In this document: positions 7,786 through 41,339 of the stretch, in pieces
How the letters are laid out: each line of letters starts with the position of its first letter
Numbering within the stretch: position 1 is the stretch's first letter
Program-made: the position numbers and the translations under genes
Assembly: GCA_014871385.1 (NCBI GenBank)
Contig: CM026425.1
Span: forward strand, 8,223,243-8,287,242
Length of the DNA stretch: 64,000 nucleotides
Reading direction: 5' to 3'
Source: Ceratodon purpureus
Taxonomy: Eukaryota > Streptophyta > Bryopsida > Pseudoditrichales > Ditrichaceae
The notes under the pieces: generated by a model
Database searches by the model: none
The model's input: the letters and a program-made list of their open reading frames with translations, nothing else
What the model was told of the DNA's origin: nothing

Positions 7786-7833
7786 AATCCAGGTGCATAG
7801 TGAGATTTGGGGACATAGTGTTAACTATTTAGT

Positions 7834-7913
7834 GAGGGAAGCTTGTACGTGAGCGGAGAGCGCAGAGCGGAGAGCGGTGAGCGCAGATTTGGAGAGCGGA
7901 GAGCACAGAATGA
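7834..7913 (+). repeat. MULE left terminal inverted repeat
   Basis: Starts GAGGGAAGCTTGTACGTGAG and continues as short repeats of GAGCGGA/GAGCGCA up to GAGCACAGAAT. It carries about 9 extra bases of the GAGCGGA repeat compared with the right end. Confidence 0.88.
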
Positions 7914-8024
7914 GGGACAGAACCTAAAAATAGCACTTTTTTTACTAAAAATAAATTATAAAATTAAAAGATTCGAATATTTTTAGTGTATTTTTGGAAA
8001 TATACTAATTTTAGTAATTTAGAT

Positions 8025-8040
8025 GACCCTATAACCGTGG
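8025..8040 (+). repeat. MULE subterminal inverted motif, left copy
   Basis: GACCCTATAACCGTGG, an exact reverse complement of 22756-22771 near the right end. Its conservation between otherwise dissimilar AT-rich subterminal regions suggests a transposase or host-factor binding site. Confidence 0.6.
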
Positions 8041-8816
8041 ACTAATTACAGTATTTTCATTGAATTCGTAGTTGATATTCTCTTTTATTGGTGATTAATT
8101 TTTTAACGTGCACCAATTACTATGCTCCAGCTCCTTCTAACTAGTTCAGGCGTACAGTAATTCCCCTTATCTCCTTAAATTTATATGCAAATTACTACTT
8201 AAAATGTATTGGTATTGAACCTCTGAACAGGGATCAAGTAACATTTAATTTCGTAATATTTTCTTAACATTGCTAGAATTCATCCACCATAGTCTACATG
8301 CCTTTCTCCTTTTTTTTTTTTTTTTTTAATTTTTTTGATATTTGTCTTGTATTTTTTATAAAATTTTCTTTATTCTATCTATCTTGTTAGAGGGGTCAAA
8401 AGCCTCCTTGCATTTGATTCTCTCCTTCATTTTATTTTCACAATCATTTTATTTTCACATTCAATTTGTTGATCTCCTTCATATTATTTTCAACCTTCAT
8501 TTTAAATATTGCTATTCTTTTCTTTAATCTTTTTAATTTCAATTTATATAAATGTCTTTTTTTTTTTAATTTTTTTTTTTTTTTTTTTCATTCTTTATTT
8601 TTTGAAGAAAAATTTAAATGCTAAATGACCTCTGCTAAACCTTCATCTTTTTCCATTCGGTTTAGGAAGATGACAACTTTTAAATGAATGAATAGCCGAT
8701 TTTCAAGGGCGCCAAGCATCTTCTTCAGGGATATTTAAGATAGGAGTAGGGAATGTCTCTGCCTCTTTTGTATTGGTGTTATGTGAAGCTCTTTTCCGTA
8801 GTGCGGGACAGCACCT
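8041..8816. other. MULE left subterminal region, AT-rich with T-runs
   Basis: Non-coding appearance: long T-runs at about 8310-8330 and 8560-8590, and no convincing frame. The last ~150 bp before 8817 is less AT-rich and may be the leader of accessory gene A. Confidence 0.4.
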
Positions 8817-9269
8817 ATGGAAGACGTCAGAGATATTGTTGTTTCACTCGCTGACGATGTTTGTCCATTTCAACCATATGTTGAGGTGGAGGACGAAGAA
8901 GAGGTGATGGCCAACAGCCAAGGGCGTCCGTCGACATCGGATGTTGCGGTACAACCGGATGTAAGAGCTGACCCTCCACGTTCAGAAAATTCGGATGAAA
9001 TCATAGTGCTAGAGAAGGACGCAGATGTGCCTTTGCAACCACATGCATACTCGAAGGTTGGAAAGATCCCAAGGGGAACCTATTCCAGGGAATCAGTGAA
9101 TCGGAGGCGGGGAGGTGGGCCATTGCTGAAACGATCATTCCAAGGACATTTGCCAAGTGTGGGAACGAAAGTGAATGCGAATGTAGTTTCTCCTGTAGTA
9201 CAGTCAGCGGCTGGCAATCCTGCTGATAGTGTAGTGGGCAACCCTAAACGTGTTAGGTTCGAAGATTAG
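8817..9269 (+). CDS. MULE accessory gene A, small acidic/basic hypothetical protein
   Basis: A single 150-aa open frame with an acidic N-terminal half (EVEDEEEVM around residues 22-31, then ENSDEIIVLEKDADV) and a basic, Gly/Arg-containing C-terminal half (ESVNRRRGGGPLLKR, ending NPKRVRFED). No known domain was recognised. The charge pattern suggests a disordered nuclear or adaptor protein. It runs convergently to the transposase, with stops about 250 bp apart. Its base composition matches the coding parts of the MULE, not the AT-rich flank, which supports it as a gene. It could also be the last exon of a longer gene, because the upstream 150 bp contains possible splice acceptors. Confidence 0.45.
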   Translation: MEDVRDIVVSLADDVCPFQPYVEVEDEEEVMANSQGRPSTSDVAVQPDVRADPPRSENSDEIIVLEKDADVPLQPHAYSKVGKIPRGTYSRESVNRRRGGGPLLKRSFQGHLPSVGTKVNANVVSPVVQSAAGNPADSVVGNPKRVRFED

Positions 9270-9523
9270 GACATCTAATAACAAGTATATGTTTGCCTTA
9301 ATAAAGGGTACATGTCAGGGGATACGAGGTATATAGTGCACTTCTTCAAGATACAATGTATTGAAATAGAATGCAATCAATGTGAACGCCAAAGCCTTTA
9401 ATATAATGAAAAAGTCAATACAGCTTCTCAATAGCTGACTTAGTATATGGTATATTACTAAAATCATTCACTACGTGACAAATGGCCATTGTGGAAATGG
9501 AAGTTCTAAAGTAGGAGGGCTAC

Positions 9524-12500
9524 CTACTTCTTCGCCAAGGGGTGACGCAAGATTCCACCCTCTAAGAGTAGCTTGACCTCGTTGAAGCTGAAGGTAGGCG
9601 CATGGATGAAAAGCTCCGCTTCGGGATCACGGTTGCAGACCTTCAAGAATATGTAGTATAGGTGCTTACAATACGTGAACTGAGTCTTGCCACGGAACGT
9701 AGTCATTGTCTTCTTGAATGCTGGGCAACTGCAACCAGGGTAAGAACTGATGGTAATCTGGTACCGTGTGATGTGTGGAGCGACGTCGGAATCCAGCCCA
9801 ATGATGCAACCGTGACCCGGCTCAGGTATCATGGTGACGGAACGGAGGCGCGCTTTAAGAGATTCGGAGGAGCCCATGGAGAGTCGCTGCGCTTGATTGG
9901 GACGAGTGGCAGTGCGCTTCACCATCTTGCCGTCTCTCTTCCCTGGGTAGCGGTCAGCGTCTGCAGGGACTGGCACCGAGCTGAGATTTGCAGGGGGCGG
10001 GGCAGAGGAGAAGAGGCGTCTTGGGGAGACCGGTTTCTTCTGCGGAAGTTGAAAGCCCGCTGCTTCGAGGGCAAGAATCTCAGTAAGTTTTAGGTTAGTA
10101 CCTAGTTTCACTGGCCAGACCTCTGGAATGGAGGGGAATTCCTGGTCCTTTGAGTAGTGCGCTACCCACTTGCGCTTAGAGCCTTTCACGCAACGCTCAA
10201 TATCGTCGGAGCAGAAGAAGAACTCAGTCTTCTCCACTAGGTTCCTGCGATAGTTAGTCCAGAGCCCAGTGTAGGTCGGTGCAGCTGTGCAATGGGGCCC
10301 CCTGACGATTCTCTCAGTGCACTTCTTCTTCGTTTCAGCTCTTTGGGCCCAGCAGCACTTCGCAGAAAGTTTGTGAAGTCTCGAAATGTGCCACTCCTTC
10401 ACGTCCACCTTGGTTTCTTCAACCGCGTTGACATGGCGAATGCCGCCCTTGTTCACAGGTGAAGGTAAAGGGGAATGAACTTCCTGGGCAGGAGGTTGCG
10501 TACATTGTACCTCGGTGTCGTGTTCGGAGTCGTCTTCCACAATGACGGGCATCTGCATAGGGCGAGCCCTGACGGCACGTCTTGGGCCTCTTGGGCGTGA
10601 GAAGTTGGTCTTATCTGGGCGATGAGACTCTTCGTCAGCTCCGATAAGGACGTCGGCCTTTCGCTTCTGTGAACCGAAGACTTCCGCTCCTGGCATAATA
10701 GGCTGACGGGTGCAGAACTCATCAGCGCCTGGCATATCGAGCATGGGCTTGTCGAGCAGTGTAGGATTTCCCCATTTCTTCGCGTTGCGTTCAGCCATCC
10801 GAAGCCTGAGTTCCTTCTTGGATGGTCCTGTTCCGCCGACGTCACCTTTGAGGAACTGGTAGTAGTTAACAACCTGTAGAAATGCCCGAACGAAATCGTC
10901 CACGGTAGCAACGTAGAGGTCGTTCCCGTTGTTTCCTGAAGCTTGGAGCCACTTGTTGTGAACTGTTTCGGCGAGGTTACAGGTGGGCATCTCTGTGAGT
11001 TCTTCTTTTGTGAATTTCTGCAGGTTTGACAGTAGGTGCCGTTAGATTCACGGATTAGACTTTTGTAGGTTAGGGCTAGGAAACCAGTATGAAAAACATA
11101 AAAACAGAGTGCAGAGATCGTACCTCGGTCATGAATCCCCCCCACTGGCGGAAGCGGTGGTGCCAGAATGACAGCCACTGATCTAGTTTGATGAGCCCGC
11201 TCTCGCCAACGACCCCGGTGGATGCCCACCATGCTCGCAACGCGTGGTACAGAGTTTCCGCCTCTGCCATGCTGGTCGCATTCTTGTACTGAGTGCACAT
11301 CTTCTTGTGCTGTTCCCAGAGTTCTTCGGGGAAGTGCTTCTGCGTATACGCCACCATGTTCTGAGTCCAATGGAACAAGCACGACCGCTCCCGGTCCTCC
11401 ATTGGGTCCTCTTTGTTGCCATTGCCGTAAAGGATCCGCACTGCATTCCAATTGGCCTGTGCGTTATCCGCCATGAACCCCTTGAAGTTCGGCGCTGCAA
11501 CGCCATTGATCTCCATGACCAGGTTCAGGTTTTTCCAGAAGACGAGCTGGGCGTCCGTGTCCTCGGACTGCATGTCGCAAGTGGCGATTGTCATCACGCG
11601 GCAGTAGGTGGCGTCGTACACATGGCACGCCATCGTCGACCAATCTTTGACGCGTTTGACATGGTCGAACATGATCCATGCGTTCTCCAAATCGCCACCA
11701 GCTTGCATACGGCTGACCAAGTCGACACCACTGCCCGGCCCGACCTCCGACATCTTGAAGACAAAGACTTTGTCACGCATCGATCCCTGACCAGGAAACC
11801 TATTCTCCTGGACATACGCCCAGAGACTATTACCACGGAGCTTGGTGATACCGTCCATGATTCCGTACCTGTTGAATTTTTTGAAGGTGGCAACTTTGTT
11901 GCGGATGTTGGGCGATGCCATGTCTTTGCATCGATCCAGAACAGGAACCAGCTCCTCCATCGTCAGTTTCCTCGGTGGTGCATCCTCGGGCTGTAGAAGG
12001 TAGCTCCCGATGAGGAGTTTGCTCGCCTCCAGGACAACGGCGCTCTTCGTTGCTTTGTTGTTCATCTCTACCTGCTCTTCTATTAAGCTACTAATCTCTG
12101 CTTTAGAGTCTCTGTAGTCTCCTACTTTCACTGGATGATCATGTGTTCCTATGTGAATACACGCTCTAGTCTGATTCGGTTTGCCCACAACGTAATAAAT
12201 CTTAGCCTCGCATGTAGCTACACATGATGGAGGTTCTTTACATACCTTGCACACTAGCGTGGAGTCGGATGGAGGAGGCTGGTCCATGACAAAAGCTTGC
12301 AGGGTACAGCCTTCGAACTCAGTCTCGTTGACCTCGAAGATCTTGGGAACACGCTTGAGAAAGTCACACTCCTGGTTGCTGCACCGGAGCCATCCGACGC
12401 AGGTGGAACTTCGAAAAGAGAGTCCGAAGTCGTTTTTGATGTTTGTTGTGATGGTCTTGGTCCACAAGTGTCCGTCGTATCGTTTGTCCATTCCCTGCAT

Positions 12501-13280
12501 AGACTTGGCGGCGAGCTTAGAGGATCCTGCAGCAGCTGGGGGCAACTCAAAAAGAACCGGACCATCAAACTTCGCAGGCAAGTACTCTACTCTCTCGTGT
12601 CTAATAGTGGAATAGTCTATCTTCTTCAAAATGTTTTTGGACCCACGCGTCTTAGCAATCTCTTTAAGGAGCGGAACAATGCTAACTGTGACCTGGGACA
12701 ATGGAGGAGACACATTGGAAGGAGGAGCATCTGCGTGGACCTTAGGCACCAACTTGACGGGACTGACTTCGTCATCAGAAGAGAGAGATATGACGGTCGG
12801 AGGAGGTTTCTCTACATCTGAAGTCTCGGTACCAGGCTCGACTTTGACTTTGACATCACGAGGTAAGGGAGTCTGAATTGTGCAAGTAGAAGAGCGACGG
12901 GGGGTGAGGATCTCAGTGGATGCAGCCATAAGAGAATCAGTAAGACCGTAGACTCTATAGGATCCAGGGAGGAGTCTCCACTGCAACATGTTGTTCTCAT
13001 CTCTCACTGAAGGTTGCCCGAGGGTGTGGGTAACCTCGGCAGTAACGTCATCGAACATCTCCTCCTCTATACTGATGGAATCCTCACGAAAATGGAATCT
13101 GAGACTGAGGCGAAGAGAAGACACTGTAGCTAGACCATCGTCATCTACGCGAAACCTTAGAGGGATGCCCATGCCTTGGGCGTACAGACAGACCATCCCC
13201 ATATTCGCAGGCAACTCAGAGATACTAGAGGAAGAACGGAGAAGAGTGAGTGTACTAGCCAAGCTGTATCGCGAGAGCAA
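9524..13280 (-). CDS. MULE transposase (WRKY/GCM1 finger, DDE core, SWIM finger)
   Basis: Two exons on the minus strand, 13280-11124 and 10990-9524, joined in phase 0 across a 133-bp GT-AG intron (GGFMTE to MPTCNLAE). The result is about 1,207 aa with no internal stop. In order: a long divergent N-terminal part with an acidic SDDE patch; a WRKY/GCM1-type zinc finger (about residues 280-385: CVGWLRCSNQEC then IHIGTHDHP); and the MULE DDE core. Candidate acidic residues are the D of HVYDATYCRV, the D of GFMADNAQANW and the E of PTCNLAETVHNKW, with the MULE-type C..H motif CLFHWTQN between the second and third. The C-terminal SWIM finger is CSCPAFKK...YCKHLYYIF (about residues 1138-1170). A linker has basic tracts (RPRGPRRAVRARP). 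MULE transposases bind TIRs and cut and paste the element. The start at 13280 is the first in-frame ATG; a later start is possible. It appears intact. Confidence 0.85.
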
Positions 13281-13999
13281 AGTGAGAGGAATGATGCATC
13301 GCTGTTGATCATTTTATTCAAATTGGAATGTCCATGTGGACGACTAGGTAATGATTTATTCAGCTACGTAACGAATGTATGATTTAAGAGAGACGGCGCT
13401 AACTAATTATGATGTTGCTTTTTGCAGGCCCATAAATATGTAGGAAGATTTTTAGAATATTGCTTCGCGTATTTGAATGGTGGAGCAGATTCTATATTTT
13501 ATGGGGTGTGATTGGATTAAAAAGAGCCGTCTACTCTTTCTGCATTTAAAACAATAAATATATAGAATTTGAATTAATCAAATTCATGCATTAGTTATAT
13601 ATTTATTGGACTAATGCAAGCATATGATTTATTCAAATTCTATATTTTATTCAGTGTTAGAGTTCCTCAATATTCAAAATAAATTGCTCGACAGACAGAC
13701 TGTGAGTGAGATTAGAGTGAGCCGTCACTTGCATCCATATTTAATACAAGTATTCCTGTGCTTAATTCAAATCTTTTAAAATTTTGTGGGCTTGGTTTAT
13801 TCTCTTCAAATATAGATTGATCTCATCAGCTTTAATTCAAGTTGCAATTTATTTATAGTTTTCATTAATTCAAGTAGGTTTAGAATATGGGAAGTATTTA
13901 GGGCTGAGTCAGGGGGGTTGCAGGTTTGGGATACATAAGTTAGAGGGAAGTTAGGAGGAGAGTTATATTGTGAGGAGACTTCTCTCGTTAGTTAGACAT
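13281..13999. promoter_or_regulatory. Divergent promoter region between transposase and gene B
   Basis: About 720 bp separate the transposase start (leftward) from the gene B start (rightward). The region turns AT-rich and holds an imperfect inverted repeat at 13561-13644: an ATAGAATTTGAATTAATC-type arm, a short TATATATTTATTGG loop, then its near complement. TTCTATATTTTAT is also repeated at about 13510 and 13638. A shared bidirectional promoter is likely from the layout alone. Confidence 0.45.
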
Positions 14000-16900
14000 A
14001 TGAAGGAGAGTGGAGGGTCAGCTCCCTCCACTTATGTCACTCCTAGGCGTAGAAGAAAACCAGGTGGTACAGATTTTACTAACAGGAGATCGAGGAAGAG
14101 GAGAGAATTACGTAGGAAGTCAAAGTCGAAAGGCAACCTCTTGAGTGCACCTCTGAAGGTTCGAGGAGCTGGGCTGCCTGTGGCAATTAAATTTTGTAGC
14201 ATCCGTAAACTCATTCTAGAGTCCATAGTAGAGGCGGAAGATGAGGTTTTAGAGGATACCGCAGTTGAGCATGAGGAGCATGAAGTAATAAGGAGTGGAG
14301 AGGAACATCTGGAGATGACGGAAGAGCTAGGGTTCAATTGCAGTCCGACTTTGGAGACACCGCAACCTTCTTTCGGATTCAAGGAGTGTTCAACAAGAGG
14401 GACAGATTCTCAGTCAAGTGACCATGCTCATACGGATGTGGTAAGTTTCATAATCCACAAATTTGAAAATGCTAAATGTAAGTTATGTATTTTGGTAGAG
14501 TTATATTTGGTGAGAATTAATGTCTTTGCTGCAGGTTCGCTGTTTTACTGTTTAGAATAGTGAAGCTGCATTAAACTGAACGGTTGTTTAAAATAATAGT
14601 GGAGTAGTAATTCTCGTCTTAGTCGTAAACATTTGCGCAGACTGGGGACTGCTTTAGGATTGAGCAAGATGTTGTAGAGGAGAAGACGCCAGAAGTGGAT
14701 ACGGGCGAAGAGTCAGATCATGAGACGTTGAGAAAAGTCGCTAGGAGAGCGAGACGCCAAATTATGGAGGCGGGCGAAGGTGGGGAAGCAGTTGCTGCTA
14801 TACGAGCGGGGCGAGGGCACCCTGGAAGTCCTACTGAAACAAGTGGGGAGGATAGTGATTCGGTCGACATTGCGGTAGGTCCAGGAGAAGAGGACATGGA
14901 TGAGGGGTCGGCCCGAGGGAGAGGTCGAAGGGCTGAGGTGAGGGGTCGAGGGAGGGGTAAGGGTCAAGGTGGGAGAGGGAAAGGCTCTTCGCAAGCCCCA
15001 TTGCAGCATACAGCCGCGGCCCAAGGAGAGATCGTGAAGGAGATGGAGGGTCGAGGAGCGGAGCGTGAGGAGGAGGAGATGGCGAGTAAGCAAGGTGCCT
15101 CAGACCGTGGCCCTCCAACAGATGAGGTGAGGTTTCGTGTTTGCCTGCGATTGTTGTTTAGATCTTGGGTTGTTGCGGTTGTGCGTGTGAGTGGAAAGAG
15201 AGAGAAGGATTAAGCCGCGAGTGCTGCAGTCGCAAAGGCCGTGAAGTAATTTGTGAGGTAGGAGATTTTGAATGCGGGGGTGGCTGCTCCGAGCTCTCTT
15301 TTCGAGGCCTTGGCCAAGGCCGTCGCGGTCCCATTACGAGCTGCAGAGGGCGACATTGCAGTAGCAGCCCCGCGGGGAGGAGCCCCCGCAGGACCGCATT
15401 CGGAGCCGACACTCCCCCATGAGGAGGGGGAGGAATCGGGGGCTCACTCCCTTACTGCTCCGAGCTCTCTTTTCGAGGCCATGGCCAAGGCCGTCGCGGT
15501 CCCATTACGAGCTGCAGAGGGCGACATTGCAGTAGCAGCCCCGGGGGGAGGAGCCCCCGCAGCACCGCATTCGGAGCCGACACTCCCCCATGAGGAGGGG
15601 GAGGAATCGGGGGCTCACTCCCTTACTGCTCCGAGCTCATTTTTCGAGGCCATGGCCAAGGCCGTCGCGGTCCCATTTCGAGCTGCAGAGGGCGACATTG
15701 CAGTAGCAGCCCCGGGGGGAGGAGCCCCCGCAGCACCGCATTCGGAGCCGACACTCCCCCATGAGGAGGGGGAGGAATCGGGGGCTCACTCCCTTACTGC
15801 TCCGAGCTCATTTTTCGAGGCCATGGCCAAGGCCGTCGCGGTCCCATTTCGAGCTGCAGAGGGCGACATTGCAGTAGCAGCCCCGGGGGGAGGAGCCCCC
15901 GCAGCACCGCATTCGGAGCCGACACTCCCCCATGAGGAGGGGGAGGAATCGGGGGCTCACTCCCTTACTGCTCCGAGCTCATTTTTCGAGGCCATGGCCA
16001 AGGCCGTCGCGGTCCCATTTCGAGCTGCAGAGGGCGACATTGCAGTAGCAGCCCCGGGGGGAGGAGCCCCCGCAGCACCGCATTCGGAGCCGACACTCCC
16101 CCATGAGGAGGGGGAGGAATCGGGGGCTCACTCCCTTACTGCTCCGAGCTCATTTTTCGAGGCCATGGCCAAGGCCGTCGCGGTCCCATTTCGAGCTGCA
16201 GAGGGCGACATTGCAGTAGCAGCCCCGGGGGGAGGAGCCCCCGCAGCACCGCATTCGGAGCCGACACTCCCCCATGAGGAGGGGGAGGAATCGGGGGCTC
16301 ACTCCCTTACTGCTCCGAGCTCTCTTTTGGAGGCCATGGCCAAGGCCGCCGCGGTCCCATTTCGAGCTGCAGAGGGCGACATTGCAGTAGCAGCCCCGGG
16401 GGGAGGAGCCCCCGCAGCACCGCATTCGGAGCCGACACTCCCCCATGAGGAGGGGGAGGAATCGGGGGCTCACTCCCTTACTGCTCCGAGCTCTCTTTTC
16501 GAGGCCATGGCCAAGGCCGCCGCGGTCCCATTTCGAGCTGCAGAGGGCGACATTGCAGTAGCAGCCCCGGGGGGAGGAGCCCCCGCAGCACCGCATTCGG
16601 AGCCGACACTCCCCCATGAGGAGGGGGAGGAATCGGGGGCTCACTCCCTTACTGCTCCGAGCTCTCTTTTCGAGGCCATGGCCAAGGCCGCCGCGGTCCC
16701 ATTTCGAGCTGCAGAGGGCGACATTGCAGTAGCAGCCCCGGGGGGAGGAGCCCCCGCAGCACCGCATTCGGAGCCGACACTCCCCCATGAGGAGGGGGAG
16801 GAATCGGGGGCTCACTCCCTTACTGCTCCGAGCTCATTTTTCGAGGCCATGGCCAAGGCCGTCGCGGTCCCATTTCGAGCTGCAGAGGGCGACATTGCAG

Positions 16901-18155
16901 TAGCAGCCCCGGGGGGAGGAGCCCCCGCAGCACCGCATTCGGAGCCGACACTCCCCCATGAGGAGGGGGAGGAATCGGGGGCTCACTCCCTTACTGCTCC
17001 GAGCTCATTTTTCGAGGCCATGGCCAAGGCCGTCGCGGTCCCATTTCGAGCTGCAGAGGGCGACATTGCAGTAGCAGCCCCGGGGGGAGGAGCCCCCGCA
17101 GCACCGCATTCGGAGCCGACACTCCCCCATGAGGAGGGGGAGGAATCGGGGGCTCACTCCCTTACTGCTCCGAGCTCTCTTTTCGAGGCCATGGCCAAGG
17201 CCGCCGCGGTCCCATTTCGAGCTGCAGAGGGCGACATTGCAGTAGCAGCCCCGGGGGGAGGAGCCCCGGCAGCACCGCATTCGGAGCCGACACTCCCCCA
17301 TGAGGAGGGGGAGGAATCGGGGGCTCACTCCCTTACTGCTCCGAGCTCATTTTTCGAGGCCATGGCCAAGGCCGTCGCGGTCCCATTTCGAGCTGCAGAG
17401 GGCGACATTGCAGTAGCAGTCCGGGGGGAGGAGCCCCCGCAGCACCCTTTTTTCGAGGCTCTTTTTGATTTGTTAAATTCGGTAGTCTTTGCTTTATATT
17501 TTTTATTTGCTGTTATGTGTATTTTTCTTATAATTTGATTTTCCTTTGTATTGTAGGAGCTGACAGAGCAATTCACCGCAAGTGACTTTGATGGCCCAAC
17601 TCCAGCAGAAACTGAGGTAAGTTGTTCGACTTTGCCTTTTGGATTGAACATAGCATTATTTGTTGAACTTCGATAATCATTTGTTTTTTTTTCCTCTCAA
17701 GGCTTAGATGGGAATCTGACAATGTCTTTGTTATTTTTCTCTAGGTATTCTCAGATGCACCCTTGTCCATCAGTTCCCCGACCTCCGTGATCAATGTTTC
17801 CGACCTCTCAGATTCATTTGATCAGCCCCATGTGTGTAGGTGTGATTTAGGAATCCCCGTAGGTGTAGGTAGTGGACCTCTTGAGGTCCACTCTCCTCAG
17901 TACATGCCTACGTCTCCTGTCTATGAGCCTACATCCCCTGGCTACATGCCTACCTCTCCAAGACTTGGGACCCCGCCTATGTCTCCACCTTCTCCATCCT
18001 CGCCCATTAGAGTGAGGAGGCCAGCCCATGTTGTCTTCGCCCTCCCAGCGATATTGCCATGCCCTGTCCAACAAACCAGGCGATTTTGGAAGAGGCGCCG
18101 TCACTGGAACTGTAGACAGGCTAGGGAGTATTATAGTCGTGCACGACGCACATAG
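14000..18155 (+). CDS. MULE accessory gene B: disordered repeat protein with Pol II CTD-like heptads
   Basis: Five exons in phase 0: 14000-14440, 14641-15126, 15262-17481, 17557-17616 and 17745-18155, about 1,205 aa. Residues ~20-55 are strongly basic (TPRRRRKPGG, RRSRKRRELRRKSKSK), a likely nuclear signal. Exon 2 is acidic, then Gly/Arg-rich (RGRGRRAEVRGRGRGKGQGG), like RGG boxes that bind RNA. Exon 3 is a 57-aa tandem array. The last exon holds YMPTSPV, YEPTSPG and YMPTSPR (17901-17963), which fit the RNA polymerase II CTD heptad YSPTSPS, and ends in a basic tail (RRFWKRRRHWNC). No enzyme domain was recognised. It lies upstream of gene C on the same strand, and skipping its stop through an alternative donor could fuse the two. 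The exon 3 donor is a choice between weak sites. Confidence 0.55.
15286..17440 (+). repeat. 171-bp tandem repeat array, about 12.6 copies, coding 57 aa each
   Basis: Units start at 15286 and every 171 bp thereafter to 17338, where the thirteenth is cut short. Each codes for a unit starting APSSxFEAMAKA, with GDIAVAAPGGGAPAAPHSEP and a PHEEGEESGAHSLT tail. Units are nearly identical; the variants (SLF/SFF, KAV/KAA, PLR/PFR) fall in blocks, e.g. units 3-6 and 10-11 are SFF/KAV while 8-9 are SLF/KAA. That indicates recent expansion and homogenisation. The period is a multiple of three, so the frame is kept, and a reverse-strand frame also stays open. Confidence 0.93.
17901..17963 (+). other. Three RNA polymerase II CTD-like heptads within gene B
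   Basis: Three consecutive seven-codon units read YMPTSPV, YEPTSPG and YMPTSPR. Tyr1, Pro3, Thr4, Ser5 and Pro6 are kept in all three, while the codons differ at synonymous sites (ACG/ACA/ACC, TCT/TCC, CCT/CCA). This suggests selection on the protein, not a fresh microsatellite. PPMSPPSPSSP follows. Confidence 0.8.
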
Positions 18156-18310
18156 TGGCCTAAGCTCTATTTATTTCTGCTGCAGCTATTTGTGTTCTCA
18201 AATGATATGTACCAGTCTGAGAAGTAATTCTTATATTCTACATTATTGTTTTTGATTTGCTTACGATCAATATCTTTGAATAAACTCTAAAAACGTTTGA
18301 CCTTTGACAG

Positions 18311-21300
18311 GTAACTCAAACACAGGATCAGTTGCCAGCGCCATCTTGTCCTACTGAATTGACGAATGCAGTGGACAGTGAATTGGAACACAGAAATCAT
18401 TTCAAAGCGGACTCTACAACCGTCATCAACGATCTCCGAATACTCCCAAAGACGAAGTCCCGTATCCTCGTACCCCTCTGCAGGATGCAGTCAATGGCAA
18501 GAGTGCGACCTGTAGGAGAAATGGGAGTTCAGCATTTGGAGCGAGAGTTTGTCAATGGATATAGAGATGGTGACCGGGTCATGTACATTTCCATGTACAA
18601 CCACGAGGAGAAGACAGCGGAAGTCACGCCTGAGATCAAGGCTGACTGGAGCCCTTGTTGGTAGAAAGTCAACGATGCTTTCGAGGATGAGCTCTTAGCC
18701 GACCCGGACTGGAAGGAGTTCTCTGGGAAGATGTTCTATGTCTGGGAAGGTAACCATCGCCTTGCCGCATGGTATAGACATATTAACAACCATCACTATG
18801 ATGATCCAGCTTGGCACATCTCCGTGCATTGCATTGTTCTTGACCCACGCGGTCATGTGGGAAACCTTCTTCATGCCATGCACGACATCAACTGGTAAAC
18901 ATTTGTTCTATACTTCTTGTCCTCACTTCTTGAAAGCTGCTTGAACCTGCACTACACGGCTTTTACTAACTACATATCCTCATGTAGGTCTACAGAGAAT
19001 GATCACGTGAAGAGTAATCTCCCTGCAAAACTCTTTCGTATTCGCTCTTTTGGTGTGATGAAATTGGAGGAATTCAAGGATCTGCTCTCACCGGCGGAGT
19101 ATCAAATATGTTTGAATCACAAGCCATCAATTCCTGGATGGTTTACTTTGCCAACCAAAATCTTCATCACATTTCTTTATCGTGTAAGCACTTCTTCTTC
19201 GCCCCCCCCCCCCCCCCTAACGCTTCTAAATGTCATCAATTGCCATGCTCTTTACACTCAGAAGTTGATAATTTTATTTTCCAGAGAGAAATCGTGGCTG
19301 CTTCTGACGAAGCTGCCCGGACCTACAAGGAGAAGACACCCATAACAGAGCAAACGGCGGCAGGGGTATGGGATGCCATGTCTGCCGCTTCGTCCAGCAT
19401 GGTCGACCACATTAAGAAGAAGGACTTCACCAAGTACCTCGCCATTGCCAATCCCAAAAACGGTGATGACTTCCTCGCAGAGGTAAGTTTCTTCACATCT
19501 CTACTTTACTTTTGAATAAGTAATTTAAACACTAACCTTCCCGTTCATGTAATGTTCACTTCCCAGATCAATCGGCATTACAGTGAATTCTCCAAGCCGG
19601 AGATGACAGTGGAGAAGCTTCAGAAGATTGTTCCTGCAGCTGTTGATGCAAAGTTCAAAGCGCGTTGGCTGAGGTGGTGGAACTCCTCACCAAGTGCACG
19701 ACAATCTTACAGATTTTTACCCCTGGAGTTCAAGGAGGCCGACTTCGACCCTTGGTTGAACAAGACAACATTCTCGGCTGGGGTATAGTTCCTTCAAACT
19801 TTATAAAAAATACTAAAACCACTTCTTCTTTGCACCACGTCAATATTTATCTCACCGACTTTTCCTTTCTGTCACAGATAGAGGATGCTGTTACCCGGGA
19901 GTTTGATGACATCTGCAAGACCGAGAACCTTGTCATCAAGTGGAAGTCCTTCCCGGGACTGTTAAGGCCAGACGCATATGTGGAGAGTTGGCGAATTCTC
20001 CTCTGGGAAAAGGCTTTCCCCGCATTTATTAGTACCCGCGCAGAAAAACCTTTTGATAAGAAGTCTGATTTCTCCACTTATCCGGGAGCAGCAGATGTTG
20101 TCAAGCGTGTGACATACCGGTAGGACATTTATGAACTTCGACTTTGTATTGTTTTCCCTTTTCGCATTTCTTTATTGTCAATAATATGTTTCTGATACAT
20201 GGCAGTTGAATTTTATTAGGTACTTCAAGAGAGAGCTGGTTCCAAAAGGTGCAATTGACCCTGAGAAGTTCCCTTCATACTTCGCCTCGTGGATTCAGAA
20301 AGGTTCTGATCAGTGTATCTATACTCCTCTGCAGCTGAGGAGGTACAGCTCTCCGCACCTAGCCGCTGGTTGTTGGTACCTCGATTGTATTCGAGGTTTC
20401 GTTGTTGAGTCTGAAGCGGAGCTCAAAGCTGAGCTTGACGCGGGATCAATAGCCATCGACGATTCTGGAGACGGTTCTGATGAGGCCGAAGGCCTCCAGG
20501 ATCAATCATCTGCACCTCCACCGAAGAAAGGGCGGGGGCGGCGACTGCGAAAGCTGGGTGGTACGTCCCAGGGCTCTCAGGAGACTGGTGCAGAGTCCTC
20601 CGCCCCGGAGAAGGGCGCTGCCGTTCCATCTCCTGTGATTGTCGTTCCCAATCTGTCCCATACTCCTGCGCCTTCATCGGTCAGTGCATCCGCTATCACC
20701 AGAGGTCTTTTGGAGCAAAGGAAGGCCAGACTTCTCCCGGCAAGCACCTCCTCCGCAGGAACTCTCCATTCCACTGGTGTTTCTATCATCAACTCATCCG
20801 TGACTCCGTTACTGGTTCGTAACATGGAGCTCAAAGACAAGGGTGGCCATCCGGATTGGGTGAAAACTCTAGAGTTCGTGCGCAAGGTATGATTCTCTTC
20901 TTACATAATTCGATATTACATACACTTCAATTAATTTCATATTGTCTAACCCTATAGCGTTGTTTCTCCAGTTTGGACGTGGCCGCCAGAACGAAGTTCC
21001 TGAGCGGTGCCAGGTTGAGAATCATCTGGGAGTCGACTTGATCATCGTTGACATCCCTGAGAATCTTCCTGTCCCTCTCGTTTCCGATCCTCCTACCGTG
21101 ATTCCTCCTTGGAACTCCCGTGAAAAGGATTATGTGTACGACATTTTCTATTTCGCAAGTCTTTACTTGCAAAATGATGGCGCTCTGTGCATCATCTACA
21201 ACAATGATCAAGCGTTGGCTACGGAGATTCTTGAAGAAGCTAGCGCCACTAAGTTCGTCCTTTACAAAGACTGGTGGGGCTTTAATGAGCTCGGCCTGAC

Positions 21301-22330
21301 TTCTCCTACGAACCCCGGAAACCTGGTAATTTCATCCTTTACTTTCCTTCAGTTTACTTAGTACTATCCCATCCGTTTATTCATTCTGACATAATTTGGT
21401 TGATTGCAGACTAATCGGTTCTGGATCCGGGTCTTCGTTCGTGGTGGCGAGCCGCCATCTAAGTTCTCCTTTCAAACGAAGAAATCCCATGTCATACATG
21501 GCGACCTCAACATTACCGAGAGTGATGCGATTTTCAACTTTATCGACGTTGATTCTCAGCAAATGAATGGGGATGTTCCATGGAGAGGGCCAAGGGAAAA
21601 ATCCCCTGGGATGATGCAGAGCATAATTGGAGAGCTCTCGAAGCCCGGCGACATAGTCCTGGACTGGAAGGCAGGAACAGGTAACCGTTCTTACATGTTT
21701 CTACAGAATTATTTCTCTGATTCCTTCCTCATTTTCTCACGTCTTCACCTTGCTTTGAGTTGCAGGGGCCTCTGTCAAGGCTTGCCAGGCTATTGGTCGT
21801 CATATTATAGCTTTTGAGGATGACGAAGCCATATTCAACGCCCTTCTCAAACCGTATATGGCAGCAAAATCTCCCATGGGCCCCCCTAAACATCCTAGAC
21901 CGGCAGCAGCAGAGGAAGCACCAGCAAAGAAACAAAGACCCACTAAGTATTGTAAGTCTTACTCTAGAATTTGTATGTTTCGTGCAATGCATCTAGTATT
22001 ATTTCTGTACGCAAATTTACCTATTCGATCTAACCACTTCTGGCTTTCTATTGCAGAGTAGTTGTGACAACACCGCCAAGTGGGCATAGAGCCGTGTTCA
22101 CTCCATCGTGGCGTCTTAATTCCAGCCCGGTTCAGCCTTTTATTCTTCCGGACTATGCAGAGGGCTTAGCACAAGCGCTTCAATGTGGTGCACTTAGATA
22201 TGTTCCTAGTCAGCCCACTAATTTTGATCCCAGGGCCCTTCTATTTGTCGATGAAGAGGCTGTAGAAGGAGAGTCTGAGTCCTCGGGTTCTGAGAGTGGA
22301 AGTAGCGACTGTAGCATCTTCGAAGTTTGA
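18311..22330 (+). CDS. MULE accessory gene C: ParB-like domain joined to a degenerate beta-class DNA methyltransferase
   Basis: Ten exons fit by phase: 18311-18894, 18988-19183, 19285-19482, 19567-19782, 19878-20119, 20220-20886, 20972-21325, 21410-21680, 21766-21951 and 22059-22330, about 1,060 codons. Around codon 146 KMFYVWEGNHRLAAWYRHI followed by the strand HISVHCIVLDPRG resembles the ParB/Srx core (G-x-H-R-x-x-A). The middle is helical and unassigned, with a disordered basic linker (KKGRGRRLRKLGG). At codons ~720-910, VDLIIVDIPENLP sits where motif IV (DPPY-like) belongs, followed by FASLYLQNDGALCIIY; after that come PREKSPGMMQSIIGELSKPG and DIVLDWKAGTGASVKACQAI, a good motif X/I (SAM-binding) block in the IV-then-I order of beta-class N6A/N4C methylases. 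DIPE in place of DPPY predicts loss of catalysis. A TAG (18662-18664) interrupts the frame before the ParB core. The 5' end is uncertain: no ATG heads exon 1, so an upstream exon or fusion to gene B is likely. Confidence 0.6.
18662..18664 (+). other. In-frame TAG in first exon of gene C
   Basis: The frame reads SPCW, TAG, KVNDAFEDELL with coding-like sequence on both sides and no usable short intron around it. CAG to TAG would be a single C-to-T change. It may mark an early pseudogene, a sequencing error, or a start of translation further down (an ATG follows within ~70 bp). Confidence 0.6.
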
Positions 22331-22755
22331 AAGAGGCCTCGCTCTATCATTGTTTCCATTTAATTTGATTTGATTTCAGTGGAGTTCATTACATACTACA
22401 TCGTCTACTCTATTGCATAGCACTAAAATATTCATGATTCTCATTTCCAGTTTATACTCGTGTATACCTTGCCTCCTTTATGTTCTATGAAAGTTGTTTT
22501 TTTCCTTGTGCATTTACATAATCCTATTAAAGAATTATTTGTTTGATCTAAAACTCAACGCCTGATCATTGTATCTTGCCCAAACCCATGATAAATCTAA
22601 AGGAATGTATGCATGACGTCATCATGACATCAGCCCTAATTTGTATCTTTGAGAACAAACGTAATAAATTCTTACCAGAGATAACCCTAAATTCCACGGT
22701 AATATACTCTTTTTCTAAAAAAAGTGTCAAAATTAAGCCTTAATTTAGTAATTTT
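22331..22755. other. Gene C 3' flank and right subterminal region of the MULE
   Basis: AT-rich, no gene. Contains AATAAA-like words and a second CCACGGT-type word (about 22696) resembling part of the subterminal motif. Confidence 0.4.
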
Positions 22756-22771
22756 CCACGGTTATAGGGTC
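22756..22771 (-). repeat. MULE subterminal inverted motif, right copy
   Basis: CCACGGTTATAGGGTC, the exact reverse complement of 8025-8040. Confidence 0.6.
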
Positions 22772-22802
22772 TACTTTGCTTTTGAAAATTTTCCTAATTG
22801 TC

Positions 22803-22873
22803 AATTCTGTGCTCTCCATTCTGCGCTCACCGCTCTCCGCTCTACGCTCTCCGCTCACGTACGAACTTTCCCC
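22803..22873 (-). repeat. MULE right terminal inverted repeat
   Basis: Reads outward-in as GGGGAAAGTTCGTACGTGAG followed by GCGGAGAGCG-type repeats, matching the left end with few mismatches and one short length difference. It is followed directly by the ACTATTTAGT target copy. Confidence 0.88.
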
Positions 22874-24846
22874 ACTATTTAGTCTCTTTGTAATATTACA
22901 TTGTTGAAAATTGATTGTATATAGCTTCAAATTTTCAAAAAAATATTCTTTATGAACTCAAATTGTTTTAAGATGGAGCTTGAATATCTTGAACCGGGTA
23001 TACTGAGAAGATTAACTATTATCATAATAATGAAGCAAGTTAGTAAAGGAGCAAATATTCTATCATTAGATTTACAAAATTAAATAGTTGGAATAGAAGC
23101 GTTATCTTGATGAATCAAAAATTTAATACAAGCAATAATTTCTTCAATGCATTTATTGTATGAATGGCATACACTTTCTACCATTTTATAGAACAAAAGG
23201 CTTATTGGATTTTGTTGAAGCTTGCATTGAATGAAGGTAGGCTCTTTCCTCTCTGTTCTCCAAATTATTTACAAGTGGTCCTCCTTAAATTGTATAGTTT
23301 TATCAAATTTAATCAACGCTAATTTTCCTCCTTAAGATATTTGTCGGTATCTTTGGCTAAATATATTTGGTAGTAACTTTTCACTATCTTTTAATTATGC
23401 CTTATCACATTTTCACTAAATTCTTTTTACTATGCACATTTATTAAAAGTTTCTTACAATTCATCTTCACCAAATTTACTTGATTAATTAATTCCTTTTA
23501 TCAAATAGATTTCTTTATAATCCGTCCTACCAAGGTAATTTTGAGTCCATTACTTTTATCATAAATGTAAAAGTATTGAATCCTTAAGAATATGGTGCCA
23601 AGTAAAAAGTGTATGATCATATGCAAGTAAAATCAAGTTCCATCCATGGAATTAATTCATCCATGTTGCATTACATTTTATGAATGATTCCAATTATAGG
23701 CAGTAAAATTTAAATTGTGATTTTTTTCCATCAAATAGATATTTAGAAATTTTCATCAACATGAGATTCACCCTTCATCCATTTCTGACTAATTCACTTC
23801 AATAATAAAAAAAATTCTTACAACAAATAAATCCTTTTTGAAATTCATGAATGGGCTGGATTATATATTAATAAAATGGTAAATTTAATGAATGCAATAC
23901 AAGGGCAAAGCCTGGGACTTGGAAGAGCACACCAAGCAAAGGCCCATGGTGTCTCTAAAATAAATAAACAATTTAAGAAAGCCATTCAAAAAGTATTGTT
24001 TGACAAAGTATTTTAGATATCATAAATAAATGAAGTTTGTAGACTTTATAACTTTTATAATAGTTAGATTCACTTGTGTTGACATCAATATTCTATTTGG
24101 ATTAGGTTATATGTGGCTTATCAACCATTGCAAATCATTGGTGCCATTGGATCGAGTTGCAATTCCATTTTGTAAGGAATTATAAATCATTACAATTTAA
24201 AAATATTTATACAATCATTTTATGAAAGTGTTTTTTATCATCAAAATTATTTATATATTCCAAGAAGTTTACAATATAATAGAATTGTGAAATATCGGGT
24301 TTTTTTTATTTGTTATAAAAAATTATATTATTAAGAAAAAAACAAAAGTTCATGTTAAAATGTACATTTTTTGAGATACACACCTAAATTTATATAATTT
24401 TCATGATGTACCAAAATATTTTTGTGTTGCCTATTAACTTTAAGTTCAAATCTGGTTTTTTTGAATATATAAAATTTTAGATTATTTTTTTAAACTTCAA
24501 GAATTTAAGATTTTAAACAAAAATCCTAAATGCATTACGATGTGAAGATTAAACAACACATGCTAACCATACATTAGCATGTGTTGTTACAGTGTTAGTT
24601 TTCTTTCACACTATGTTGAATGGTTTATTTTGTTTCTTATTGGTTTCGTTTTTTTTAGTTAGCATGCATTGTTAGGGTTCAATTCATTGATGTTGAATAG
24701 TTTAGTATCGTGATCTACAAACAATGTGGATGCTTTCATGCGTAGGTTACAATGTTAACTTTCTTTCACTTCAATGTTGAATAGTTGTTATGAGGATTGA
24801 ATTTTGATGAAAAGTAACTAATCTAATGTGATTCATGTAATCTTGT

Positions 24847-28639: not shown

Positions 28640-30698
28640 TACATCCAAGTTTGAGTGTCATTATCTTGTCCCTTTGTACATTTATGTATCAATTTGAAAT
28701 CTATATATCAATCAATCAAACACCTCACACATTAACTAACTTTATACATAATTATAAATATAAAAACCTTTAATTCTAATTGGTTGTTTGATGACCTTTC
28801 AGCCACTACAAACCATACGGAGCTCAAGTACTAATGATCATTACATTCATCCATAGTAATAAAAAAAAATAATGCCCATCCAATTCCTCAAAAAACCTTA
28901 CATAAATCTAATTTATGTGTCTTTTCATAACATGCAATCTTTTTTATTACTTGTTTATATGTCCTTCAAAATGCTTCAATTGTTTTCAATGGATCTTTTT
29001 ACACAATCATCATATTACACAACTTTGTATAGATCCACACAAATTTCATGTTATGAAATTTTATAAATACAATCTTAAATGCAATCATGAAATAAAAATA
29101 AAAATATATACAAATGTAAAAATTACAAATCATGAAAATGATAGATTTACAAATGTAAAAATTGAACCAAAAACTACTAATCAATGCCAAAATGTTTTGG
29201 CACATCATGAAATCTTTTAAAGTTACGTGTGTTATCACAAAATGTTCACTAAAATATGAACTTATATTTTTTTCTTAATCATGGGTATTTTTACATTGAA
29301 TAAAATAGAAATTAAGTTTACATAAAATTATTTAAATGTAAATTACTAAAAGTAAAACTACTTTGATAATGAAAAAACATATTAATAGGATGGATGCATA
29401 AGGTTTTTTTATTGTATAGTTTTATAATGGCAACACATAGAGATTAATTTACATTGGCGCCATATGCGCCAACGATTTGATTTGTATACCTTTGAACAAA
29501 AAATCGCTTATGTTTAATTTTTTTGAAATGTCGTTAAGCATTGATTGTAGGAATAGAACTATTTGAAAAGATTTAAAATATGAAAACACATAATTGCATT
29601 ATGACATATGTATTGTATGGAAGAATAAGTTGAAATCATTGAAAATGTTCAAACGCTAATGCACAAACAAAAAATTGTAGGAAGAACCATATAGGATGTT
29701 ATTTTGCGTGTACCTTGAAGGAACATTCAGACATCTATTCTTCTTCTTTCAAAGCTCTCGTTTGTGCATATCATTTTTTCATTTGGATTTTATCTAGGAT
29801 TTTATACAGACATTGTGATTGATAGACATTGATAAATTTTTTATTTTTTTAATATAGATTAATTTTCAATTGTAGAATTGAAATCCTAAATGCACGCATT
29901 GTATCCCATGTCTCATCTATTCAATTCAAACAAGAATAATAATAATAGAAATACAATTTTTCCATTTACCTTTAATTTATGATGAAGTTGACAACAGAAC
30001 CTTTGAAAAACGTAAATCATTTGACAAAATACATTCACTATAGACTTAACCATGTAAAGACGTGAGATGAGTATACAAAATTCTCAATTGGGTGGAACAA
30101 ATAGATGTTTTGTTTATAATTTGTTTTGTTTTATTTTTATTTTTAAGATTGGAGTTTTTAATCTTTTTAATTTTTATAAATTATTTTATGCCATTATTTA
30201 GTTTGATATGTAGATAAATACATGGTAAAATACATTATGACATTCTTTAGTTTGATATGTTAATTCCGTCGACAAAGAACTTGGAGATGGTTTTACCTCA
30301 AAAAAATTTAAAGAAAAATTGTCGTCGTCATGTCTTTTCGTATTATTGGTCCAAAAGTTATTTCAAATAATATTTAAAAATAAACCGGCATATATTAATA
30401 ACAAAAAAAAAACTCGGCCTCACTCATTTTTGGTGTAAATTTTATTTTGTTTTGTTTTTACATGAACAACTTTCATTTTTTATATTCAAATTAAAAAATT
30501 GTGATTTTTGTTGACAGTTGTGTAATATGTGAAATCTGTAATATGAAATTGGAGAGTGTAGAGTTTGGATTGAAGAGTTTATTTGAGGTTTTCTTTATAA
30601 AATTATACTAAATTTATAGATTAATTTTTTTTTGTAAAAACATCCAATATTTGTTTTAGATACCACAAGCCTTAATTGAATACAATGTTTTTTTTCAC
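28640..30698. other. AT-rich DNA, no gene seen
   Basis: Weak frames such as 28915-29220 (+) are low-complexity AT translation. A GC-rich hairpin, TTGGCGC-CATAT-GCGCCAA, stands out at 29454-29472. Confidence 0.4.
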
Positions 30699-31639
30699 TT
30701 TAAACCCTAAAGGTCCAAAGTGTTTTGGGACCTCCAAGGCCCAAAACTGTAGATTTTGACCACCTAATGGAAATTGATGTATGTTTCCAATAAAAATTCC
30801 TTTTTTGGTATTTCCAACCGTAAGATCTTCAACCTAACTACTTGCACTAATACCATGTCACATTTCAACAGTTGGATCTTTACCATTTATGATTTATGAT
30901 ATTATAATGCTCAAAGTATACAGTTTTTTTTTCTGGCTTTCCTCGAAAAGCAAAGTCTAAATGGTGCCAAGGGAGGCTTAATGATTGTTAGTCCAAACAT
31001 TTTGCTCATATTTTTTTCCATCTAGGTAACTAAGTTGGGCACCTCTATGCAAAATTTTGAAGACTCATTTTGATTTTTTGGCCTTCATGAAAATTATTTA
31101 CTAAAAAGGAGGTACAAAATCCTCAGTATGGTAAAACTTAAATAACATTAAATTTTTTTGGCTTGGAAAAAAAGTGAACGGTAAAAAGTTACATCTATGA
31201 GTTTGAAAAATTTGGAAGAAAGAAAATTTGAAAAAAACTTAAATCTCTAATTTTGACAGTATTTGAAAGGAAAAAATGTAAAATTACAAAAAACTTTGAA
31301 GCTTGTTCATATAATTTTTGGAGGCTGCCATTGTAAAATTGTTAAACTTTTTGACTTGGGTCACTTTGGATTTTGAGTAATGATTTGGTTATGAACATAT
31401 TAAAAAAATTTGAAAAAATACCTAATTTTAAATTGCCCTATCTCGACTTGAAATCTAAAATTTCTAGATGAGGGTTCTAAAATTGGAATTTGACTTTGAA
31501 AATTTCACCACGTACACCTTGCGGTAAAGGGAGCATCCAATAAAAATACTAGGCAAAAATATTATTTTTAGCCTCTTCATCTAGGCTGCGCAAAATAGCA
31601 AAATCCACAATCGGGTATCATGGACCTTTAGAGGTTAAA
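30699..31639. mobile_element. Non-autonomous element family 2, copy 1 (~940 bp)
   Basis: The left end TTTAAACCCTAAAGGTCC and the right end, read inward, TTTAACCTCTAAAGGTCC form TIRs. The interior is alignable to 49589-50543 through shared blocks: CATTTTGCTCATATTTTTTTCCATCTAGG, then TACACCTTGCGGTAAAGGGAGCATCCA, kept in order. No open frame spans it. Confidence 0.7.
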
Positions 31640-39705: not shown

Positions 39706-41339
39706 TCAAAACTGCGATGGATCGAAGCCACCGCCATTGCTGACGACGTCGAAGCTCAACGGCACGATCATCTCTAACCCGCCACCTTCCGAAGCGTCCA
39801 TGTTCTTCAGATCCTCGAGGAGGCTCACAGCGTGCTGTTCAGCTTGCCAAAAGGATTCCGGAATATCGACGCTCATGGAAGCCGACGTCTGTGCATGCTC
39901 AGCTGCATACTCGCCGTCGATGAGAGGGAAGCTGTGGTAGCTGCTTCCCGGAGCATCATGGTGCAGGAACTCGAAGTTGCAGTCTGAATTATCCCCTGAC
40001 CCGCTGCAGGAATCGGAGTCTGGGCCCTGCAGGATGCTAGTCGGGGAGAAATGATTCTCTAACCCCACGCCCAGCTGATCGTCGGTTACGAAGCCGAAGA
40101 CTGGATGATTCCCTGGCCGCTCGGAGATCTCCTTGAACATGTCCGATAAGAGGTCGGGTTTGGATTGGAATACAGAGTTGGTGGTTTGAGATGGGAACCC
40201 GATGTCCTTCATCGCCATGGCTGCGTACTTTTCTAGGAACGGAGATGCGGTTGTTTGGATCCCCAGCGCGGTGTTCCAGTCTTGGAGAGGTTTCTGGAGT
40301 CGGGTTATGTTGGGCGTGGGGGCGGGTGTGGAGTAGTCGATGTTGAGGCGTTCCCGATGGGGCTCTAGCTTCACGGTGCCGAAGGCGGGTCGCAGTGTGT
40401 CCTCCACCTTGGTCTTCCAGGAGCGCATGAAGTAAGCCGACGGGTGGGGGACGGTGGTAGCGCTGCCTTGAAGCTCGCTTAGTAGTGACGGCGGCGCGGA
40501 TAATTGGGAAAGGCGAGCCTCGGCCTCGGCGAGGGCGGAGTGCCACTGCGTGTTGTGGGTGAGCTGGGTGGACACGAGGGGCGTCCACGCCGGCGCCAGC
40601 GCCAGGCCGGCGCTGCTGGTTTTGTGCGTCACTGGGTCGATGCCCATCTGGGACAGGCGTTTCTTCAGATGCGTGTTCCAGTAGTTCTTAATCTCGTTGT
40701 CGGTGCGGCGCGGCAGGTGGCTCGCAATGGCAGACCATCTGATGCATTCATGCAAACAAATACGTTAAGATACGCAAAACCTTGAAAAATAGAACATCCG
40801 CTCTTGCTGTAGTCTTGGAAATGTGGCAGAAATGGGAGTTGACGTGATTCTCTACCTGTTGCCAAGGATGGCGTGAAGTTGGATAATAATCTGGTCTTCT
40901 TCGTTGGTGAATCGGCCGCGCTTAATATCAGGCCGCAGGTAATTCGTCCACCGTAACCTACAGCTTTTGCCACACCTCGCAAGTCCTGCAAGCCAAAAAA
41001 AAAACCCAACCCACGTATGAGAATTTTATTACAAACAATCGCTTTATGGAAAAACCATTAGAACAGCAGCTAGCATTTCTTCTTCCAAGAACAGAATTTC
41101 CAAAAGAAAATCAGCCAAAACCAGCACGTGAATGCGAGACAGCCACGAAAGAATCCCAAGCACCAGAAGGAAAGAAAACGAAGAGTCGCTCAGATAATTG
41201 TACCAGCTTTCTCAGGAAGATGTCGCCAGCTTCCATGACCGTGCTTCTGGATGTACGCCACGAGCTTCTGATCCTCATCGGGCGTCCACGGCCCCTTCTT
41301 CAACGCCACCCTCTCATCGCAGCATGGAGCCCTACCCAT
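39706..41339 (-). CDS. R2R3-MYB transcription factor, subgroup 9 (MIXTA-like)
   Basis: Three exons on the minus strand, 41339-41204, 40985-40856 and 40738-39706, give 432 aa. The introns (218 and 117 bp) lie at the conserved R2R3-MYB positions. The start is [21 protein letters not shown]2 holds W at GPWTP, GSWRHL and LRWTNYL, and R3 has the usual hydrophobic replacement of the first Trp (RGRFTNEED), then [11 protein letters not shown] and [18 protein letters not shown] follows, and [13 protein letters not shown] fits the subgroup-9 motif (QWESAR..AEARL). The C-terminal part is Ser/Asp-rich with acidic stretches suited to activation. Known subgroup-9 members control epidermal cell outgrowth and cuticle genes, and this is the expected role. 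It is intact, and the nearest upstream features are a TATA box and a G-rich repeat. Confidence 0.88.

Follow-up and report, generated by a model that had tools for sequence, protein, structure and literature searches.

A 64,000-nucleotide stretch of the genome of the moss Ceratodon purpureus, hereafter the window, contains a 15,040-bp element at positions 7834-22873 that resembles a Mutator-like element (MULE) and that encodes, next to an open transposase, three accessory gene regions: gene A, a gene B with an exon resembling the C-terminal domain (CTD) of RNA polymerase II (Pol II), and a ten-exon gene C that joins a predicted ParB-type fold to a methylase-like domain. That the element exists with this composition is close to certain. 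Taken as a whole, the evidence is best explained by a large, recently active and modular family of MULE-like elements whose accessory genes would sustain expression of the element, a reading to which we give somewhat better than even chances.

The boundaries are set by a target-site duplication, ACTATTTAGT, whose two copies at 7824-7833 and 22874-22883 agree at 10/10 positions, and by terminal inverted repeats (TIRs) about 70 bp long. The left TIR (7834-7911, + strand) contains repeated GAGCGGAGAGC units, and the right TIR (22804-22873, - strand) recurs across the genome; with the target duplication counted in, the inverted arms extend over 64 nt and are 89% complementary. An earlier reading of this DNA (the original prediction) had claimed firm ends, with a perfect 10-bp duplication and matching TIRs, and three accessory gene regions between them, and on both points it is borne out. 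A subterminal ACCGTGGA motif was read at 8034-8041 on the + strand, with two - strand sites, at 22693 and 22755, and three more elsewhere in the window. The transposase occupies the - strand, and the divergent + strand side holds gene A, a candidate exon, a tandem array, the CTD-like exon and gene C.

The transposase consists of two exons, 11124-13202 (693 aa) and 9524-11017 (stop codon included), that together encode 1190 aa with zero stops. The first exon carries what we take, by eye, to be WRKY/GCM1-like and DDE-like domains, and the second a SWIM-like end in which CxC...CxH is visible by eye; the Pfam SWIM profile reaches 12.4 bits, below its cut-off of 19.6, and no Pfam MULE match was obtained. 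Of the intact WRKY/GCM1-DDE-SWIM transposase that had been proposed, the intact frame is therefore confirmed, while the domain names retain the standing of a visual assignment. The residues YDxTYC, ADxAQANW and CLFHW, also read by eye, are retained in a transposase relative that is only ~54% identical. Elements of the MULE superfamily generate target duplications of 9-11 bp. Six other copies of the present element are flanked by 10-bp duplications matching at 10, 10, 10, 10, 9 and 9 positions, such that seven copies, the window copy included, have a MULE-type duplication of 10 bp with 9-10 of 10 positions agreeing. On this duplication length, the TIRs and the residues seen by eye, and with profiles silent or below threshold, the element is best described as MULE-like.

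A fundamental question is whether the accessory genes belong to the element or merely travel in one copy of it. The genome that holds the window comprises 362.5 Mb, with one contig of 110.5 Mb; a 360-Mb genome with U and V chromosomes of >100 Mb each is described for C. purpureus (PMC8000587). The genome searches scored only the best candidates, so that every count is a minimum and the high identities partly reflect this selection. With this scope, the genome contains at least 40 left ends that are 99-100% identical (best 40 of 1322 candidates, all 40 passing) and at least 40 right ends that are 100% identical (best 40 of 1389, all 40 passing). For transposase exon 1, 64/64 best matches (of 2766 candidates) are 99-100% identical and 60 are free of stops. 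The CTD exon has at least 150 matches at 90-100% identity (best 150 of 1136 candidates), and gene C exon 6 at least 151 matches at 60-100% identity (best 150 of 1812 candidates).

These parts are arranged in a fixed order. An exon-6 match lies 1-4.5 kb downstream of 71 of the 150 listed CTD matches and on the mirror side of none; among the matches listed, at least 18/40 left ends are accompanied by a CTD or exon-6 match on the expected side and strand, again with 0 on the mirror side. At least 35/64 transposase matches are linked to a CTD or gene C match, with 0 on the mirror side and 2 in the wrong orientation. Moreover, reading parts of 24 left-end copies (out of 39 besides the window copy) revealed both gene A and the transposase (86-100% identity, piecewise) in 23 of them, the exception being copy L016, an 8.8-kb derivative that lacks its own transposase. 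In one of those 23 copies, the composite C7:28501, gene A and the transposase are those of a second left end. Pairing of left with right ends yields elements of 13.4-17.5 kb (n = 6, including the window copy) and a seventh pair, at 23.4 kb, which is this composite. The original prediction had suggested comparing gene content among copies that share the TIRs, and the linkage of left ends to genes B and C is the result of that comparison, which does not refute the prediction; since the match lists end at 150 entries, the other 22 left ends need not lack B and C. The presence of gene A in nearly all further copies read, together with the fixed order and strand of the CTD exon and gene C, supports the view that the extra genes belong to the MULE-like element.

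Selection was compared by omega from Nei-Gojobori counts, with exclusion of pairs with <5 synonymous changes. The samples, each in addition to the window, were 17 of 23 copies for gene A (without L018, L019, L021, L022, L033 and L034), 11 of 23 for the transposase, 5 of 7 for the CTD exon (without L010, which is split, and L013, which is partial) and 4 of 5 for gene C exon 1 (without L020, which is broken). Median omega was 0.09 for transposase exon 1 (12 sequences, 65/66 pairs usable), 0.30 for gene A (18 sequences, 145/153 pairs), 0.16 for the CTD exon (6 sequences, 14/15 pairs) and 0.13 for gene C exon 1 (5 sequences, 9/10 pairs). Across all ten gene C exons, the window and L035 differ by dS 0.85 and dN 0.17 with an omega of 0.20 (0.10-0.41 per exon); comparison with the near-identical L010 gives an omega of 0.78 from few changes. 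The accessory exons compared have been under purifying selection, a conclusion we hold with great confidence, and because omega is low across exons the genes were preserved for the proteins they encode, at least during the earlier history of these lineages. Stops are found in the gene A exon of L020, the CTD exon of L018, the transposase exons of L013 and L020 and gene C of the window, where a single in-frame TAG at 18662-18664 (exon 1) is absent from five other copies (L010, L012, L016, L018 and L035).

Gene capture is common in MULEs (PMC13317346), and one explanation is that a single copy simply captured host genes, which would make the accessory genes passengers like those of Pack-MULEs. 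However, gene A adjoins the transposase in 23/24 further copies read, the CTD and gene C exons are each present in at least 150 copies, and the accessory exons compared are under purifying selection. Since the accessory genes are family-wide, linked to the transposase and selected, simple capture is excluded for practical purposes and we give it next to no probability. Pack-MULEs are defined by a missing transposase and captured host fragments, whereas here the transposase is open and the accessory genes extend across the family.

Individual copies also record more complex histories. The L016 derivative (L016:907-9700 on contig G000:C6) retains both ends, the CTD exon and gene C from exon 1 to partway through exon 5, and sits in transposase exon 2 of another element, flanked by a 10-bp duplication. 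In the composite (L011:502-5595, G000:C7:28501), a left end identical to that of the window is followed by an open transposase only ~54% identical and then by the second left end with a near-identical transposase, a picture of nested or composite elements and of a second transposase lineage. The 110.5-Mb contig G000:C6, 30% of the genome, holds 11/64 transposase, 46/150 CTD and 63/150 exon-6 matches among the matches listed, and divergent gene C copies may be collecting on this putative sex chromosome.

The same copies indicate that elements of the family are mosaics. In 10/23 copies (L014, L017, L018, L020-L022, L028, L030, L031 and L034), identity to the window falls from 90-97% in the last transposase bin to 75-79% in the adjoining 300-bp bin, immediately ahead of the start codon, which places a sharp break within the spacer at 13234-13999. 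In L027 and L029 the drop occurs some hundred bases further on, and others stay similar for longer. Constraint on codons does not explain this break, because the noncoding stretch past the transposase (8734-9333) also remains 92-100% identical in 22/23 copies. Nine copies allowed both exons to be compared with the window: in five, transposase dS is 0.05-0.13 and gene A dS 0.61-1.02 (in L027, 0.049 vs 0.83), and in the other four gene A dS is 0.07-0.09. Copies were chosen by left-end similarity, which favours similar transposases. However, this choice does not account for the pattern, because without recombination the linked accessory genes would be expected to be equally similar. Low transposase dS and high gene A dS in the same copies, together with the sharp spacer break, are the rationale for regarding the elements as mosaics, and it is highly probable that their parts were exchanged by recombination, whether as moving cassettes, as pieces or through gene conversion.

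Which of these processes was at work? Gene conversion could have homogenised the transposase and the ends without any transfer of accessory genes as units, and we consider this a serious possibility, if slightly short of an even one. It is in keeping with the ends and transposase being the homogeneous parts among the copies scored, and with two sequence classes in the left flank (8134-8733). L025 and L032, 94-100% alike from ~8734 onward, differ in the left flank (84 and 71%). Breaks also occur inside the accessory part, as in L024/L035, where gene A is 92% identical and gene C is 89% identical in exon 1 and 59% in exon 6. Against conversion stand the position of the break within one spacer in 10/23 copies and the joint divergence of gene A, the CTD exon and gene C exon 1 in all three divergent copies in which all three were seen (L012, L018 and L020). 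A whole accessory cassette moving as one block was considered and is not accepted as proven; the internal breaks of L024/L035 somewhat weaken the reading by cassette exchange. It is accordingly only a tentative and rather doubtful proposal that a conserved transposase and conserved ends are combined with fast-diversifying cassettes, encoding a Pol II-tail mimic together with a pseudo-methyltransferase of ParB fold, that copies would trade as counter-defence sets against host silencing.

The CTD-like exon of gene B (17745-18155, + strand, stop codon included) contains YxPTSPx heptads at ~17892-17960 and ends in a conserved basic Trp/Tyr-rich tail. Three heptads are present in the window and up to five in L022, with 3-5 YxPTSPx-like units across six copies, and the heptads persist at a synonymous divergence of about 1 change per site. 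The Pfam profile RNA_pol_Rpb1_R scores 20.0 bits, short of its 20.3 cut-off, and a search finds RPB1 chains, with single stretches weak. The heptads' conservation upholds the Pol II CTD-like repeat protein that had been predicted. The CTD-like exon and gene C exon 1 both start in phase 0 behind an acceptor and may share one upstream donor exon, and for this reason a single gene might give rise to both B and C as alternative products. In the nearest complete copy, L010 (151-1009), the CTD-like exon is split or partly duplicated relative to the window.

Gene C extends over 18311-22330 on the + strand, and its ten exons join in frame via GT-AG introns: exon 1 at 18311-18894, followed by 18988-19183, 19285-19482, 19567-19782 and 19878-20119, a linker in exon 6 (20220-20886), the methylase-like domain in exons 7 (20972-21325) and 8 (21410-21680, up to motif I), exon 9 (21766-21951) and exon 10 (22059-22330, stop codon included). 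A fold obtained for exon 1 from the single sequence had a pLDDT of 41 and was not usable; from a 29-sequence alignment, a fold of the ParB/sulfiredoxin superfamily is predicted for this N-terminal domain, and one phage 'DNA methylase' is among its fold matches. A ParB profile at the level of Pfam families found no match among 53 members. The whole of gene C as query against the protein collection returned zero relatives and its parts returned 8 and 52. Searches of prokaryote and virus contigs confirmed no relative of gene C.

Could gene C encode a functional N6/N4 DNA methyltransferase by which the element's DNA is marked? The PF01555 profile matches residues 820-877, ending in exon 9, at 31.8 bits vs a cut-off of 26.7. 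The domain is similar to CcrM/DpnA and retains the GxG loop and the acidic residue after it, and exons 7-9 evolve at an omega of 0.19-0.35. The catalytic motif of beta-class N6/N4 DNA methyltransferases is (D/N/S)PP(Y/F/W). At the DPPY site, however, exon 7 reads DIPEN, and D(I/L)PEN stands there in 9/9 of the family sequences read that cover it (the window, L010, L035, P0001 and P0003-P0007). Because of this replacement an active DNA methylase is unlikely, and a methyltransferase that marks the element appears improbable. The original prediction of a ParB/methylase-like protein consequently survives as regards ParB, by predicted fold, and is not supported as regards active DNA modification.

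Gene A is represented by an exon at 14000-14440 (+ strand) encoding an Arg-rich and then acidic protein, open in 17/18 sequences compared, the window counted in. A candidate further exon with an open frame, acidic and RG-rich, lies at 14629-15213 (+; approximate boundaries), and a tandem array of 171-bp units, open in one + frame, was read at 15284 to ~17440. At the equivalent interval the unit is 171 bp in L016 and L035 as in the window, 213 bp in L012 (3970-7327, 15.8 copies) and ~198 bp in L022 (7639-9096, 7.3 copies). The array was dropped as a certain coding repeat. Since the arrays of L012 and L022 are closed in all six frames, it may not encode protein and could be a noncoding sequence specific to each subfamily. 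Fast-evolving tandem repeats also occur in VANDAL elements, within VANC proteins and in noncoding targets (PMC5735166), and to these the array bears a resemblance only. The phase of a small candidate exon of 20 aa at 17557-17616 (+) would be compatible with splicing to 17745 or 18311.

We hypothesize that the gene C product works in trans on the DNA of the element: the ParB/sulfiredoxin-type domain would bind DNA, nucleotide or both, and the methylase-like domain, having lost methylation, would at most bind SAM or DNA. The CTD-like protein would recruit factors normally bound to the Pol II tail, and the two together would keep the element transcribed against host silencing. Diversification of the accessory genes could then reflect recognition that is specific to each subfamily, a parallel to the VANC proteins of VANDALs. 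Such an anti-silencing or expression role is our leading suggestion, though possible rather than probable. An alternative hypothesis, on the unlikely side in our estimate, is that the accessory proteins are transposition co-factors for excision or integration, comparable to MURB of MuDR, with no silencing role. Linkage and purifying selection fit any role that serves the element, and a ParB-type domain can have nuclease or nickase activity (PMC5512222). However, co-factors would be expected to coevolve with the transposase and TIRs, yet near-identical left ends and transposases carry very different accessory genes, and for this reason roles that differ between subfamilies are preferred over a pure co-factor.

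Outside the element, the window contains host genes resembling, by eye, an R2R3-MYB gene (39709-41057, -) and a TOC75-type chloroplast channel (59171-62192, +), and a further repeat pair at 30687-31595 and 49577-50499 with 80% identity across ~930 bp.

In the open-licence PMC literature no described counterpart was found for an element with this accessory set. To our knowledge, MuDR and Mutyl have no ParB, methylase or CTD parts. Both likewise combine a transposase with a further open reading frame (mudrA/mudrB in MuDR, mutB in Mutyl; PMC6446971). The VANDAL/Hiun elements of Arabidopsis are likewise MULEs with a transposase plus further genes, VANB and VANC. VANC proteins are anti-silencing factors that differ between families and often contain tandemly arrayed peptide motifs, and their targets are tandem-repeat motifs (PMC5735166). 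VANDALs are non-TIR MULEs (PMC13317346), whereas the moss element has long TIRs; its protein set also differs, in that the excerpts of PMC5735166 and PMC13317346 name no ParB or methylase-like parts for VANDALs. Kaonashi/ULP1 MULEs keep an accessory gene conserved across eudicots, the accessory domain there being an ULP1 protease (PMC13317346). DNA transposons that encode methyltransferases are known as mariner elements with an endonuclease and Methyltransf_26 or C5 cytosine domains (PMC3627910). Bacterial and phage fusions such as Bce_0392 of Bacillus cereus unite ParB and adenine-methylase domains in one protein (PMC5512222); moss gene C, unlike these, exceeds 1000 aa, has a long middle part, introns and an altered catalytic motif, and resides in a eukaryotic transposon. 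To the few forms of accessory gene known from plant MULEs (MURB, VANB/VANC and ULP1), the moss family would add a predicted prokaryote-type ParB fold with a catalytically altered methylase domain and a selected Pol II-tail-like protein. With recent copies abundant, its similar transposases and deeply diverged accessory genes amount to a natural experiment on the trading of counter-defence or regulatory parts.

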